From NCBI RefSeq assembly GCF_001437155.1, contig NZ_JQAR01000002.1, forward strand, positions 1-64,000: a stretch of 64,000 nt of DNA, in the 5' to 3' direction. Shown one piece after another: positions 2 to 63,049 of this stretch. The position numbers and the translations under genes are program-made. The number at the start of each line of letters is the position of its first letter. The first letter of the stretch is position 1. The notes below the pieces were generated by a model. The model made no database searches. It had not been told where the DNA came from and saw nothing but the letters and a program-made list of their open reading frames with translations. The stretch is from Liquorilactobacillus mali. GTDB taxonomy: Bacteria; Bacillota; Bacilli; Lactobacillales; Lactobacillaceae.

Positions 2-154
2 GATTCCCTTTTCAATAGGATTTTTATTCATTTACACAAACTATTTTATACTCTCATGAATATTAACGATTTTTCTGAAAATATTGATGGAACAACATAT
101 TTTCATCTTCCGCGAAAAAAATATCAGGCCTTGTTATTAACTAAAGTAGAATGA
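2..154 (+). CDS. 3' end of an unrecognised gene
   Basis: An open frame enters from the left edge and ends at TGA 152-154, giving the last 50 codons of a protein. The tail is rich in Phe, Leu and His and ends in LLLTKVE. I do not recognise a family. The frame is followed after about 40 bases by a strong terminator hairpin, which supports it as a real gene end. The decayed transposase just downstream means it could also be part of a mobile element, but nothing in the residues shows that. Confidence 0.4.
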   Translation, partial: DSLFNRIFIHLHKLFYTLMNINDFSENIDGTTYFHLPRKKYQALLLTKVE

Positions 155-191
155 AATTCTTTTAATTGAAGAAAATAATCAGCATTAATAA

Positions 192-232
192 GTGACTAGA
201 CCAAAATGAATTTTTGGTTCAGTCACTTTCTT
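192..232 (+). terminator. Rho-independent terminator
   Basis: GTGACTAGACCAAAA pairs with TTTTGGTTCAGTCAC across a 5-base loop, with one mismatch, and is followed by a T-rich stretch. It sits directly after the partial gene at the left edge. It belongs to a set of similar hairpins in this window built on a GTCAAAA / TTTTGAC core. Confidence 0.65.
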
Positions 233-357
233 CTTGTACGTTAAATAAACTGCAAGCTTTACTTGTGGGAGGCAAAGGACCTTAGCGAGAAAAACTTTCT
301 TTCGATATAATAGGTTTCGGCTACCAATCGAAACATTTACGAAAGGAAGTTTTTGCA

Positions 358-489
358 TTGTCAAAAGACAAAAATAGCTTAGAATATACGAGAGGAGATT
401 GTAAATATCACATAGTATTTATACCTGAGTACCCAAAAAAGTTATATGTGATAAAAGAAGTACAAATAATAGACCTCATTACATCCTAA
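358..489 (+). pseudogene. IS200/IS605 TnpA transposase remnant
   Basis: A TTG-initiated frame reads SKDKNSLEYTRGDCKYHIVF, which matches the typical amino-terminus of IS200-type TnpA (DKNSL...CKYHIVF.P.Y). TnpA is the HUH single-strand transposase. The frame stops after 43 codons, and the HUH histidine pair and catalytic tyrosine expected downstream are not found in the next 150 bases. A good ribosome binding site (GAAAGGAAG) precedes the start, so this is the original 5' end of the gene. The element is inactive here; only its left part is recognisable. Confidence 0.7.
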
Positions 490-677
490 TAAAACTTGGT
501 TCTACCACGGCCGCTTAACAAATGCCAGCAGCAAGACAAGAACATCAACAAACCAACCCAATACTTTAAGAATAGCGATACAAATTTTCTTGAGCAAATT
601 AATCAATTCCTTTTACCAAAAGATTACTCTCACTTTTAATATTTGTATAGTAAATTTAAGATATTTTTAAAAGAATA

Positions 678-59972: not shown

Positions 59973-60326
59973 CAAATTTGGTCTGGCAAGTACAACCGCT
60001 ACTATTATTATAATGCATGTAGATTACCTTATAATTTAGCACAGAGTAAAGATACCAAAAGTAGGAAAGTTTTAAATAAAATGATGAAGTTCTTTATGAC
60101 AAAGGAGTATATTGCAGGTGGATATACACTTAGTGGGCGACAACTGTCAAATTATCAGTCCGCTAGCTTTGGTGCACCTATCTTCTATGCTGCTAAGGAT
60201 TCGCAGAAATATAACAAATTAATTCAAATGGAAAAATATATTTTTATGCAAAAACTCGAAGCAGATAATTACTATCAGTCTGCATTAATAACTTTAGCTA
60301 GTGAGAAGTTCTTAAAGAATCAATAA
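59973..60326 (+). pseudogene. Carboxy-terminal remnant of a GH8 glycosidase
   Basis: A frame open from 59973 to the TAA at 60324-60326 reads YNRYYYYNACRLPYNLAQ and then GYTLSGRQLSNYQSASFGAP. These match the late part of GH8 (endoglucanase/chitosanase-type) enzymes, where YDAxRxPxxLA and a later Asn-Tyr-x-Ser-x-Phe segment close the barrel. The front half with the catalytic Glu and Asp is missing, and a TGA stands directly before the frame. About 117 codons remain. Its promoter is gone and the preceding terminator isolates it, so it is probably silent. Confidence 0.55.
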
Positions 60327-60517: not shown

Positions 60518-61093
60518 TTACCAAAAGGTGCTATATAGTTTAGTGAAGATATTTGTCATCTCTAGGCAAGATTCTTTTGTTCCATTTGCAATCCAAAGTG
60601 TAAAGACATTAAAAAGAGCTCCAGATTGAAGATATACCTGATATTTTTCAAGCTTTGTTGCGGCATGACTATATTTCAGCATCAAGTCATTTAATTGTTT
60701 CAGAATTTGATGACTAAGACCTGCATTAATAAGAGTTGCATACAACGTACGATGATTGAAAACTATTTCAAACAGATTAAAGATAAATTGCTTAGGATTA
60801 TTGGTTTTACCTGAAACCGGGTCAACATAGGGTTTCAGTCCTGAGTTGACTTCTTCTATAAAGTTATCAATTAAATCATTCAGGATCTCAACTTTGGAAT
60901 TATAGTTATTGTAATATGCAGTCCGAGAGACACCAGCTAATTTAACAATTGAACTGATCGTTATTTTTTCAAAATCTTGTTTTCTCAATAATTCAACCAG
61001 TGCTGTGGCAATGGCCTCGCGTGTCAATCGATTTACTTCAGAGTTTGATTTGTTTTTCATTTTTATTTGAATCTCTGAGAACAAGTTGGACAT
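60518..61093 (-). CDS. TetR-family transcriptional regulator
   Basis: 191 residues. The amino helix-turn-helix is ITISSIVKLAGVSRTAYYNNYNSKVEIL (about residues 43-70); the YYNNY form, instead of YYHF, belongs to the Firmicute TetR group with a TetR_C-like ligand domain. ATG 61093 follows AAGGAGATTTTGTA; a frame from 61117 has no site. It is divergent from the membrane M28-like gene, which it probably represses together with itself, given repeated sequence between them. Confidence 0.86.
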   Translation of the reverse strand: MSNLFSEIQIKMKNKSNSEVNRLTREAIATALVELLRKQDFEKITISSIVKLAGVSRTAYYNNYNSKVEILNDLIDNFIEEVNSGLKPYVDPVSGKTNNPKQFIFNLFEIVFNHRTLYATLINAGLSHQILKQLNDLMLKYSHAATKLEKYQVYLQSGALFNVFTLWIANGTKESCLEMTNIFTKLYSTFW

Positions 61094-61112
61094 TACAAAA
61101 TCTCCTTTTTTG

Positions 61113-61186
61113 TACAAGTTATGGTATAAGTAGCTTTTTTTAATTGTTGCAGTTTTTTCAATACTTTATACTACAAGTTAACATAT
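61113..61186. promoter_or_regulatory. Divergent promoter region with repeated operator
   Basis: TACAAGTTATGGTAT (61113-61127) and TACAAGTTAACATAT (61172-61186) share 12 of 15 bases. The plus promoter TTGTTG (61144-61149) / TATACT (61167-61172), 17 bases apart, ends where the second copy begins; the first copy overlaps a TATACC box on the minus strand in front of the tetR gene. This is the expected place for TetR binding. Confidence 0.55.
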
Positions 61187-61228
61187 GATATTACATTTGT
61201 AATGTCTAAAGATATTGGGGGAGAATTT

Positions 61229-63049
61229 ATGAACTTGTTTATTAGTTTAATATTATTAGTATTATCTGTCATGACTTGCTTACTCACGGGTTATCCCATT
61301 GCAACAGCTGCTATTTCGCTGTTTGCAAGTTTAATGTTGTGCATGTATATAATGATGTCAAAGAAGATAAGAAAAAAATTAATAGTATCGTTGTTTTTAG
61401 TTTCTGCGTTGTTAGATTTTATTTATATTATTACCTCTTGGGTACCAATGATTTGGGTACAAGTCGTTGTGTATCTCATTATGAGTTTATATTTTATTTT
61501 AAAGATACAAATAGCATCTTCTGTAGGTAAATATCTCACAAAGGGATTATTAATGTTATCAGTTTGTCTGATCAGTGGATTATTACTTATTGATATTTCT
61601 AGTAATTCAATTGCCACCACTGTGAACAGCAGCGAGAAACTACCTTCTGTACGAATAAAAAAACAAAAATTAGAAAATCAGAAATCATTGCTGGCCGATA
61701 TGAATACTATGAATAATTTTGGCAGTCGCTTGACAGGTTCTACGGGACAAAACCAGTTTATTGGTTGGCTTGAAAACCAAGCTAAAAAAATGAATTTAGC
61801 TGTTCACGAAAATAAGTATAGTTTTTTGAATTGGACAGAAAAAGATAGTTCACTTTATGTTAATAAACAAAAAATCTCAATATCATCTGCGTATCCTTAT
61901 TCCGGAAAAACAGATAGTAGAGGAATCAGCAAAGAATTAGTTTACACAGACAATAATAATCTTGATAGAGCTAAAGGAAAAATAGCCGTTATACAAGTGG
62001 ATAATACAAAAACGATACCTAAGCAGTTAATCATGAATCAACAGAGTTCTTTTCCTAAGGGCACACATATTACTTCCAACGATGGAGATATTACTTTATC
62101 GGCTGCTCTAAGAGCCACTAATCTAAAAAAAGCGAGAAAAGCGGGCGTAAAAGGGGTTATTTTAGTTTGGAAAGGTGCATCTGATTCAAAAGTAAAGGAA
62201 CAATATCAACCTTTTACAACTGATTATGCTGGTGTTCCGGCACTTTGGGTGAATGAAAGCGAAGGTAAAAAGGTAATTAAGGCTGCAAAGGCACATCAAA
62301 AGGGGAAAATTACATTAATAGCGACACGTAAAAGGGTAAAAACAAAATCATTTTATGTTACTATACCGGGAAAAAATAAAAAGGAATCCATTATTATTAA
62401 TACGCATACCGACGGTGTCAATGCAATTGAAGAAAACGGGGCAATCGCATTGCTTGCAATGATGCGCTATCTAAAAGATCAAAAACCTAATAAAACACTT
62501 GTTTTTGCATTTGTAACGGGCCATTTTCGCTTACCTGTTTTTAAAGGGACCTCACAAGCAACTTCGACCTGGCTTAAAGATAACCCTCAGGTTTGGGATG
62601 GCAAGGGGAAACACCTCAAAGCTGTGGCTGCAATAACCGCAGAACATCTGGGTAGTATGGAGTGGAAAGACAATAAAAATGGAAAGTTCAGCCCAACTGG
62701 GAAAATACAAACTGAATATACCTATGTGGGCAATCAAACAATGAACGAAATATGGATGAAAGCAGTAAAAAATAGAAAATTAACTAGAACTGTTACATTA
62801 AGAGGACATAATGGTTTTGAATTCGGTGAAAGTCAGCCGCTTTTTAATGAAAAAATACCAGTAATTGGGTTGATTACTATGCCGGATTACTTAACTACAA
62901 GCAGCAAGAGTTTGGAAATGGATAAGTTTAATGTTAATTTGATGCACCAACAAATCAGTTCTTTATTAAAGGCAACACTAACTATTGATCAATTAAGTTC
63001 AAAGCAACTAGGCAAAGGGCAAAGCTACTCATATTTTATCGGCAGATAA
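61229..63049 (+). CDS. Membrane protein with M28-like peptidase domain
   Basis: 606 residues. Four or five hydrophobic helices fill residues 1-125; an exposed part follows with a PA-like insertion (about 200-370) and an M28 aminopeptidase-like core. IIINTHTDG (His393, Asp395) lies where the first zinc ligands fall, but the usual D-D and E-E ligand pairs are replaced by EEN (401-403) and TGH (430-432). ITAEHLGSMEW follows at 469. It may be a divergent metallopeptidase or an inactive relative. ATG 61229 follows GGGGGAGA. It is divergent from tetR. Confidence 0.7.
   Translation: MNLFISLILLVLSVMTCLLTGYPIATAAISLFASLMLCMYIMMSKKIRKKLIVSLFLVSALLDFIYIITSWVPMIWVQVVVYLIMSLYFILKIQIASSVGKYLTKGLLMLSVCLISGLLLIDISSNSIATTVNSSEKLPSVRIKKQKLENQKSLLADMNTMNNFGSRLTGSTGQNQFIGWLENQAKKMNLAVHENKYSFLNWTEKDSSLYVNKQKISISSAYPYSGKTDSRGISKELVYTDNNNLDRAKGKIAVIQVDNTKTIPKQLIMNQQSSFPKGTHITSNDGDITLSAALRATNLKKARKAGVKGVILVWKGASDSKVKEQYQPFTTDYAGVPALWVNESEGKKVIKAAKAHQKGKITLIATRKRVKTKSFYVTIPGKNKKESIIINTHTDGVNAIEENGAIALLAMMRYLKDQKPNKTLVFAFVTGHFRLPVFKGTSQATSTWLKDNPQVWDGKGKHLKAVAAITAEHLGSMEWKDNKNGKFSPTGKIQTEYTYVGNQTMNEIWMKAVKNRKLTRTVTLRGHNGFEFGESQPLFNEKIPVIGLITMPDYLTTSSKSLEMDKFNVNLMHQQISSLLKATLTIDQLSSKQLGKGQSYSYFIGR

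Follow-up and report, generated by a model that had tools for sequence, protein, structure and literature searches.

Enzymes of the M28 fold are a textbook two-zinc system, and the role of each metal in them is an old question. Among the closest described members are the Bacillus subtilis zinc aminopeptidase BSAP (6hc6) and the Aneurinibacillus AM-1 aminopeptidase (2ek8), both of which carry the Glu-Glu motif. Here we describe a gene close to the end of a 64,000-nucleotide stretch of DNA (positions 1 to 64,000 of contig NZ_JQAR01000002.1; this whole stretch is called the window), which encodes a predicted membrane-anchored M28-fold protein of 606 residues and stands back to back with a gene for a TetR-family regulator. 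The M28 fold with a PA domain is known already, as is the TetR-type divergent switch arrangement; what appears to be new is a conserved family, as yet without a name, whose metal centre has been redrawn and which in the clade of the window may take an inducible, surface-anchored form. Residue numbers below follow the 606-residue form.

In the M28 structure 1amp, the metal sites are His97 (site 1), Asp117 (site 2), Glu152 (site 3), Asp179 (site 4) and His256 (site 5) (PMC7522609, Table 1). The excerpted text of the same survey reports that each of the 145 solved M28 structures it covers carries His at site 1 and at site 5, lists BSAP and the AM-1 aminopeptidase with two zinc ions, and states that single-zinc M28 proteins hold their zinc with sites 2, 3 and 5 (PMC7522609). 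Excerpts of three further articles were drawn on (PMC3511530, PMC4320195 and PMC3426542).

The window protein shares with BSAP and the AM-1 enzyme the fold with its PA insertion, the H-x-D pair and the order of the motifs, at 17% identity to 6hc6_A. Unlike them, it has His-Phe for Glu-Glu, has lost the site 5 His and carries five predicted membrane helices. A histidine also replaces the catalytic Glu in an Aeromonas proteolytica aminopeptidase entry, 2anp, and because its title calls it a "Functional Glutamate 151 to Histidine mutant", a His base has a precedent. However, 2anp is a laboratory mutant changed at a single residue, whereas the substitution in the window protein is natural and is accompanied by changes at sites 3 and 5. 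Glutaminyl cyclases and GPAA1 have the same fold and are thought to work with one zinc (PMC7522609, in excerpt), but their zinc lies at sites 2, 3 and 5, whereas the window protein appears to keep sites 1, 2 and 4. A sister subfamily, represented by L123 (genome G542, of the window's class) and a Herbiconiux protein labelled "M28 family peptidase" (WP_322843346.1, L157), likewise has T-H-F for Glu-Glu and E-H for D-x; it differs in site 2, which reads V-[EQ]-D-A-S-G, and L123 has one N-terminal hydrophobic segment against five in the window protein. On the regulatory side, the locus resembles TetR/TetA-type switches in its divergent genes, short gap and palindromic operator, but here the target gene encodes an enzyme-like protein of the membrane instead of a pump.

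An apparently redrawn metal centre

Metal sites were mapped against canonical Bacillota M28 proteins (alignment A5) and the intermediate protein L123, to which the family aligned in hhalign with probabilities of 35.6 (E 4e-4) and 99.1, respectively. The motifs H-T-D-G, E-E-N, T-G-H and E-H-L-G are all present in the window protein. A preliminary description of the locus had read E-E-N and T-G-H at the places of the usual Asp-Asp and Glu-Glu. The motifs are indeed there, but Glu-Glu is replaced by His432-Phe433 rather than by Gly-His: hhalign and MAFFT agree in placing His432 opposite the first Glu, the catalytic base, and Phe433 opposite the second, the site 3 ligand. Our own first mapping, which set Gly431 and His432 on the two Glu residues, was dropped on the same alignments. 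Glu472 closes a strand (residues 464–472) in the AlphaFold2 model, and a short alignment pairs it with the site 4 acid of 5 of 6 canonical proteins. A Glu at this site is found as well in L127–L130 (NFEARG), M28 proteins that keep the other ligands, so it is not itself unusual. Residues 551–570 of the window protein contain no His, and the same is true of its near relatives (40 of 96 rows in the alignment described below).

On these alignments, the window protein would keep sites 1, 2 and 4 and lose sites 3 and 5, with His in place of the catalytic Glu. The site set of the single-zinc glutaminyl-cyclase type (2, 3 and 5) is absent as well, sites 3 and 5 being lost. Because it lacks two defining features of competent M28 peptidases, namely the Glu-Glu pair (catalytic base and site 3) and the site 5 His, we do not class the protein as an M28 peptidase; it is most likely a metal-dependent hydrolase on the M28 fold.

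Conservation was assessed in two alignments. The first, of 90 rows, omits L008, a copy of L023, and L022, a copy of L018; the second, of 96 rows, drops the short L041 and adds L115–L117, L121–L123 and the Herbiconiux protein, so that two of its rows belong to the sister subfamily. Most sequences came from a scan with the pattern H-[TS]-D-G-x-N-x-[IVC]-E-E, and because this pattern demanded them in 80 of the 90 rows, the counts for His393, Asp395, Glu401 and Glu402 are inflated. The TGH and EHLG motifs fall outside the pattern, and His432, Glu472 and His473 played no part in sequence selection. Seventeen of the 96 rows were found without the pattern and are referred to as unselected rows.

His393, Asp395, Glu472, His473 and Leu555 were invariant in both alignments (90/90 and 96/96). 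In the 90-row alignment, Glu401, Glu402 and His432 were each present in 89 rows and Glu534 in 87; in the 96-row alignment, His432 was present in 95 rows and Phe433 in 91. All 17 unselected rows had His393, Asp395, His432, Glu472 and His473. Phe433 and Glu534 were each found in 12 of them, and Glu401 and Glu402 in 14 each, the exceptions being two Asp and one Gln at 401, and two Ala and one Gly at 402. The first H-x-D is therefore kept, as the preliminary description had it, and the candidate ligands are conserved, a point on which it had agreed beforehand to stand or fall.

That description left the choice between a new type of metallopeptidase and a pseudoenzyme. Of the two, a variant metal-dependent enzyme is the better fit, since the unusual residues have been retained in Bacillota, in alphaproteobacteria and in an actinomycete. 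Against the Liquorilactobacillus mali orthologue, the ratio of nonsynonymous to synonymous substitution rates (dN/dS) was 0.14 for the core and 0.29 for the membrane part. Residue conservation across phyla, this purifying selection and the patatin fusions described below together argue that a dead pseudoenzyme is unlikely and that the protein is active.

Fold and membrane anchor

The AlphaFold2 model was built on alignment A4, which holds 63 sequences (the window protein and 62 of 65 chosen representatives, four of them trimmed at the front), and reached a mean predicted local distance difference test score (pLDDT) of 89.3 and a predicted template modelling score of 0.82. It consists of five N-terminal helices (residues 2–18, 23–43, 50–69, 73–91 and 98–126) and a mixed core. 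Hydropathy also counts five segments, where four or more helices had been anticipated.

Structure comparison of the model settles the fold as M28 alpha/beta with a PA domain; a fold other than M28 had been named beforehand as fatal to the proposal. The top Foldseek matches were the M28 aminopeptidases 2ek8 (E 1.5e-23) and 6hc6. VIA-align returned 6hc6_A with a Z of 30.8 and a root-mean-square deviation of 3.2 over 371 aligned residues, and 1tkf with a Z of 26.2. Transferrin receptors were also among the matches of both programs. Sequence models barely recognise the protein. PF04389 scored 21.6 bits on the window protein (cut-off 21.3), covering only positions 4–65 of its 193, and matched 2 of the 10 members of set A2 (which includes the near-identical L008) at E ≤ 0.01; the PA domain model PF02225 fell just below its cut-off (Table 1). 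Searches with the window protein alone gave no match in NCBIfam and none among PDB sequences, and a PDB search with profile A4 reached 2ek8 at 1.5e-4.

A TetR regulator and its candidate operator

The tight pairing with a divergent TetR gene noted in the preliminary description is borne out: the open reading frame is present, and a conserved operator supports the coupling. The window TetR scored 24.3 bits against PF00440 (cut-off 24) and the L. mali copy 27.4, and dN/dS between the two was 0.025. From start to start, the gap between the TetR gene and the M28-fold gene is 111 bp if TetR begins at TTG 61117 and 135 bp if it begins at ATG 61093. According to excerpts of PMC3511530, TetR regulators lying less than 200 bp from a divergent neighbour usually repress that neighbour; with either start, the window falls inside this limit.

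A TetR gene of the same kind is divergent and adjacent in 11 loci, comprising the window, eight related loci, L121 and L122, with near-duplicates included (the window and L023 are nearly the same, and there are pairs of close relatives). The TetR proteins of L121 and L122 are 48% and 47% identical to that of the window. Of these 11 loci, 9 carry an exact copy of the palindrome ATTACA-NN-TGTAAT; the copy in L026 has one mismatch, and that in L122 is degenerate. Elsewhere, a single match was found in 1,427,415 bases of other, partly overlapping loci, and it lies in L126, which had been fetched by the pattern search itself. Because the palindrome pattern occurs only twice in the whole own genome, here and in C56, the regulator probably acts locally. 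Nine of the 12 members with a multi-helix N-terminus have a TetR neighbour; L024 and L030 have none, and L036 is cut by a contig end.

Within the TetR reading frame, the internal ATG at 61093, with the Shine-Dalgarno sequence AAGGAGA, is preferable to TTG 61117 as a start. A TGTAATG half-site of the operator is repeated around 61093. In L025 (7456–7970) and L031 (7214–7997), extra sequence that is absent from the close relative L029 lies between operator and gene start.

Distribution of the family

The pattern scan covered 84,980 species genomes and gave 277 matching stretches. Relatives are encoded by 237 of them, a lower bound for the family given the motifs that the pattern demanded, and the 80 best were retained. 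The scan found members in Paenibacillus, Cohnella, Clostridium and Lacrimispora, as well as in many uncultured Clostridia of the gut. Plasmid records added members in Rhizobium (31 records), Bradyrhizobium (3), Novosphingobium (2) and Rhodococcus (1), including p42d of R. etli CFN 42 and large plasmids of bean-nodulating Rhizobium. Annotated plasmids label these genes as hypothetical proteins. No model specific to the family was found in the copies of Pfam and NCBIfam that were searched, and no description of it was recognised in the open PubMed Central literature.

Sampling by rank gave members in 3 of 14 genomes of the genus (one of the three, G008, only distantly related), in 8 of 301 genomes at family level (own genome counted) and in 4 of 398 genomes of the phylum (own genome included, as well as G542, whose protein belongs to the sister subfamily, E 6e-15). 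Because occurrence is so patchy, horizontal spread of the gene is suggested. A phylum-wide search with L123 recovered only L123 itself in 348 genomes. A quick tree with long branches, good for rough placement only, sets the window protein roughly beside members from Lachnospiraceae and Paenibacillaceae. The own-genome protein search for paralogues returned, apart from the query gene, only L014, which weakly matches the membrane part. Among the PF04389 matches in the own genome, which also include L004 and L006, L001–L003 look M20-like.

Some distant copies look decayed: L009 lacks Glu402 and Glu534, L119 (G123) is split into two frames and L120 (G259) is short. The last two, both from Lactobacillaceae, hint at repeated loss. 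A phage origin of the family was considered and rejected, the sole match at E ≤ 0.01 in 50,697 phage records, MT835484.1, looking bacterial; a search of viral contigs gave no confirmed relative. Filed as "Bacteriophage sp.", this record carries genes that read as a replicative helicase, a topoisomerase subunit and an oligoendopeptidase-like protein beside the family member (L021, 58203–70851), and probably represents a contig from an uncultured member of the Clostridia.

Compartment, neighbours and candidate substrates

The preliminary description supposed that the protein acts on peptides outside the cell. For the clade of the window, the five helices and the positive loops suggest that the core domain lies outside the membrane, which agrees with the first part of this idea. 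The second part fares less well: most clostridial members begin near the core, with neither membrane helix nor signal (N-termini judged by eye), and are probably cytosolic, and none of the neighbours examined points to peptides in particular. Twin-arginine-like N-termini, also judged by eye, are present in the Rhizobium and Novosphingobium members, though not in Bradyrhizobium, and would suit an export substrate loaded with its cofactor. Because the chemistry does not seem tied to one compartment, a dedicated protein-trimming role is disfavoured.

Neighbours were surveyed around 89 targets, 8 of which were missed by gene calling, and 62 of 78 upstream neighbours were scanned. Two clostridial contigs encode single-frame fusions of a patatin-like phospholipase, DUF6363 and the M28-fold core (L049:7080–9395, 771 residues; L067:5199–7520, 773 residues). 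A gene for a flavoprotein resembling BaiCD and old yellow enzyme, identified from the L085 protein, lies directly downstream in L085, L091 and L093. DUF3141 genes stand beside the family member in Rhizobium (L015, R. etli p42d, 72538–103950) and Bradyrhizobium (L018, B. ottawaense), and a tyrosinase-family gene is close to it in Rhizobium (R. etli p42d). In Novosphingobium RL4 (L017:3051–11434), one strand carries in succession TetR, a TonB receptor, a first copy, an acyl-CoA ligase and a second copy; PLSDB has no genes annotated over this interval. The sister-subfamily gene lies in a run with an ATP-binding cassette (ABC) transporter, an amidase, a cupin and a flavin adenine dinucleotide-dependent oxidoreductase. 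These contexts weakly favour small acyl or amide conjugates as substrate, and a carboxylic acid freed from a small conjugate would fit them. A partner in efflux or drug resistance was considered and set aside: major facilitator superfamily or ABC-2 genes occur near several lactobacillus copies, but polytopic and ABC proteins, counted by distance from the gene, showed no clear enrichment.

Gene start and surroundings

The open frame on the forward strand spans 61202–63049 and encodes 615 residues from ATG 61202 or 606 from ATG 61229. The latter, which is also the start and the numbering used in the preliminary description, is the better of the two, because a GGGGGAG ribosome-binding site precedes it and because ATG 61202 overlaps the operator palindrome. 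Features of the locus are collected in Table 1.

Table 1. Features of the M28-fold gene and its regulator, in window positions
Feature	Position	Strand	Basis
Divergent TetR-family regulator, 199 residues from TTG 61117	60518..61117	-	Pfam TetR_N (PF00440) over cut-off, TetR_C_8 just under
Possible -10 box TATACT directly before the operator	61167..61172	+	By eye; absent from the consensus scan list, weak
Candidate operator palindrome ATTACATTTGTAAT	61190..61203		Shared among TetR-linked loci
Ribosome-binding site GGGGGAG for ATG 61229	61217..61223	+	Sequence
Predicted membrane-anchored M28-fold protein, 606 residues	61229..63049	+	Open reading frame, fold and family evidence; alternative upstream ATG 61202 gives 615 residues
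N-terminal membrane anchor, residues 1-126, five predicted helices	61229..61606	+	AlphaFold2 secondary structure, hydropathy
M28-fold core with inserted PA domain, residues 136-606	61634..63046	+	VIA-align range 142..590 against 6hc6_A
PA domain, residues 245-357 in 615-residue numbering	61934..62272	+	PF02225 at 23.4 bits (cut-off 23.9); M28 and PA relatives top the fold search
His393-x-Asp395, putative metal site 1 and partner	62405..62413	+	Aligned with HxD of canonical M28
Glu401-Glu402-Asn403, putative metal site 2, ligand Glu ambiguous	62429..62437	+	Register varies between alignments
His432-Phe433, in place of Glu-Glu (catalytic base, metal site 3)	62522..62527	+	96-row counts, hhalign and MAFFT register
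Glu472-His473, putative metal site 4 and next residue	62642..62647	+	Conservation, strand end, alignment with site 4 acid
Glu534 (motif G-E-[GS]-Q), corresponding to the aspartate of M28 S-D-H	62828..62830	+	Aligned with Asp of SDH

Downstream of the M28-fold gene lies a gene for a DeoC/LacD-type aldolase, and the gene order matches that of a same-genus genome. For this gene the nearest named relative is L. mali, at 94% identity, and the same-genus genome has the same 94% copy. On the other side, a 117-residue frame with no proper start (59973–60326, forward strand) stands between a gene for an ASCH-domain protein and the TetR gene. A Pfam search with it gave nothing above chance, and it is perhaps the end of a decayed gene.

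Proposed mechanism and alternatives

We propose that the window gene encodes an M28-fold enzyme with a redrawn metal centre, anchored at the cell surface and switched by TetR, that would hydrolyse small conjugates. One metal ion would be held by His393, Glu401 or Glu402, and Glu472, in the position of Zn2 of two-zinc M28 enzymes. The other metal position would be lost, its private ligands now being Phe433 and a residue other than His. His432 may replace the catalytic Glu as base, and His473 would lie beside the metal. The bond cleaved would be an amide or ester of a small conjugate, and proteins would not be substrates. In the organism of the window, the five helices would hold the catalytic domain outside the membrane; the TetR protein would bind at 61190–61203 and repress the M28-fold gene until released by a small molecule, either substrate or product. 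Judged as a whole, on sequence comparison and a predicted structure, this proposal falls just short of an even chance. More tentatively, we consider it possible that the family forms a natural class of M28-fold metalloenzymes, spread over Bacillota, rhizobial plasmids and others, that use sites 1, 2 and 4 only, carry His for the catalytic Glu, perhaps bind a metal other than zinc and act on small acyl or amide conjugates, one clade being TetR-inducible and surface-anchored.

A number of observations weigh against this proposal. At the metal centre, the position of the bridging Asp of site 2 is acidic, yet its register differs between hhalign and MAFFT runs, so that it may be Glu401 or Glu402; position 401 is Gln in the Rhodococcus member, and position 402 is Gly in L009. 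Direct hhalign of the family against canonical M28 proteins puts a residue other than Glu472 on site 4, and in three longer MAFFT alignments L127 and L129 are gapped there. The Paenibacillus lacisoli copy (L028:7965–9815) has Leu at position 432, and the loop after His432 is of low confidence in the AlphaFold2 model (mean pLDDT of 62 over residues 431–440). A His occurs somewhere in columns 551–570 in 56 of the 96 rows, and at column 562 in 49. This column (Leu562 in the window protein) lies three before a D-K pair and, counted from that pair, is out of register with site 5; its His is a possible displaced metal ligand in those members. As to regulation, the near-duplicates among the 11 operator loci count here as well, the gap between TetR and the gene reaches 515 bp in L025 and 784 bp in L031, above 200 bp and with the operator on the TetR side, and the membrane-bearing relatives L024 and L030 have no gene of the TetR cluster at position -1. 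The proposed substrate is drawn from a few gene contexts, all in distant members, and in most loci the flanking genes bear no relation to one another. Polytopic proteins make up 13 of 156 neighbours at distance 1 and 6 of 110 at distance 5, so that transporters are not clearly enriched.

The alternative that survives best, although we consider it unlikely, is an enzyme of the M28 aminopeptidase kind after all, which would use His432 or another residue as ligand, hold two metals and trim extracellular peptides. It gains from the closest folds being zinc aminopeptidases, from a Glu-Glu register that could be one off, from the site 4 Glu shared with L127–L130, and from the His of column 562 near site 5. 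It is hard to square with Phe at site 3 in nearly all rows and with a window protein that has no His in residues 551–570, when every M28 structure in the excerpted survey has His at sites 1 and 5 (PMC7522609). The apparently cytosolic clostridial members also speak against the trimming of extracellular peptides.

A pseudoenzyme, that is, an M28-fold receptor or binding protein that senses or holds a ligand like transferrin receptor 1, seems to us distinctly improbable. In its favour, the catalytic Glu and the site 3 Glu, on which classical catalysis most depends, are both gone, and transferrin receptors are among the fold matches. Yet the polar residues of the pocket are kept across phyla, a constancy for which a protein that binds varying ligands would have no need, and both the fusions to a patatin hydrolase and the catabolic-looking gene runs point to an enzyme. 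Least probable of all, by our estimate, is a non-hydrolytic enzyme such as a lyase or acyl transferase, comparable to glutaminyl cyclase, a transferase on the same fold: single-metal M28-fold cyclases do exist (7d1b and 7d18 are among the VIA-align matches; PMC7522609, in excerpt) and without the Glu base water would not be activated in the usual way, but cyclases use sites 2, 3 and 5, of which the window protein lacks 3 and 5, and no pathway context demands a transferase.

Implications

If the proposed metal centre is correct, a family that apparently keeps the metal position left unused by single-zinc relatives, together with a histidine base, would offer a ready-made test of what that metal does alone. 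The conserved TetR operator would provide a direct route to the substrate, by way of the ligand that releases the repressor.

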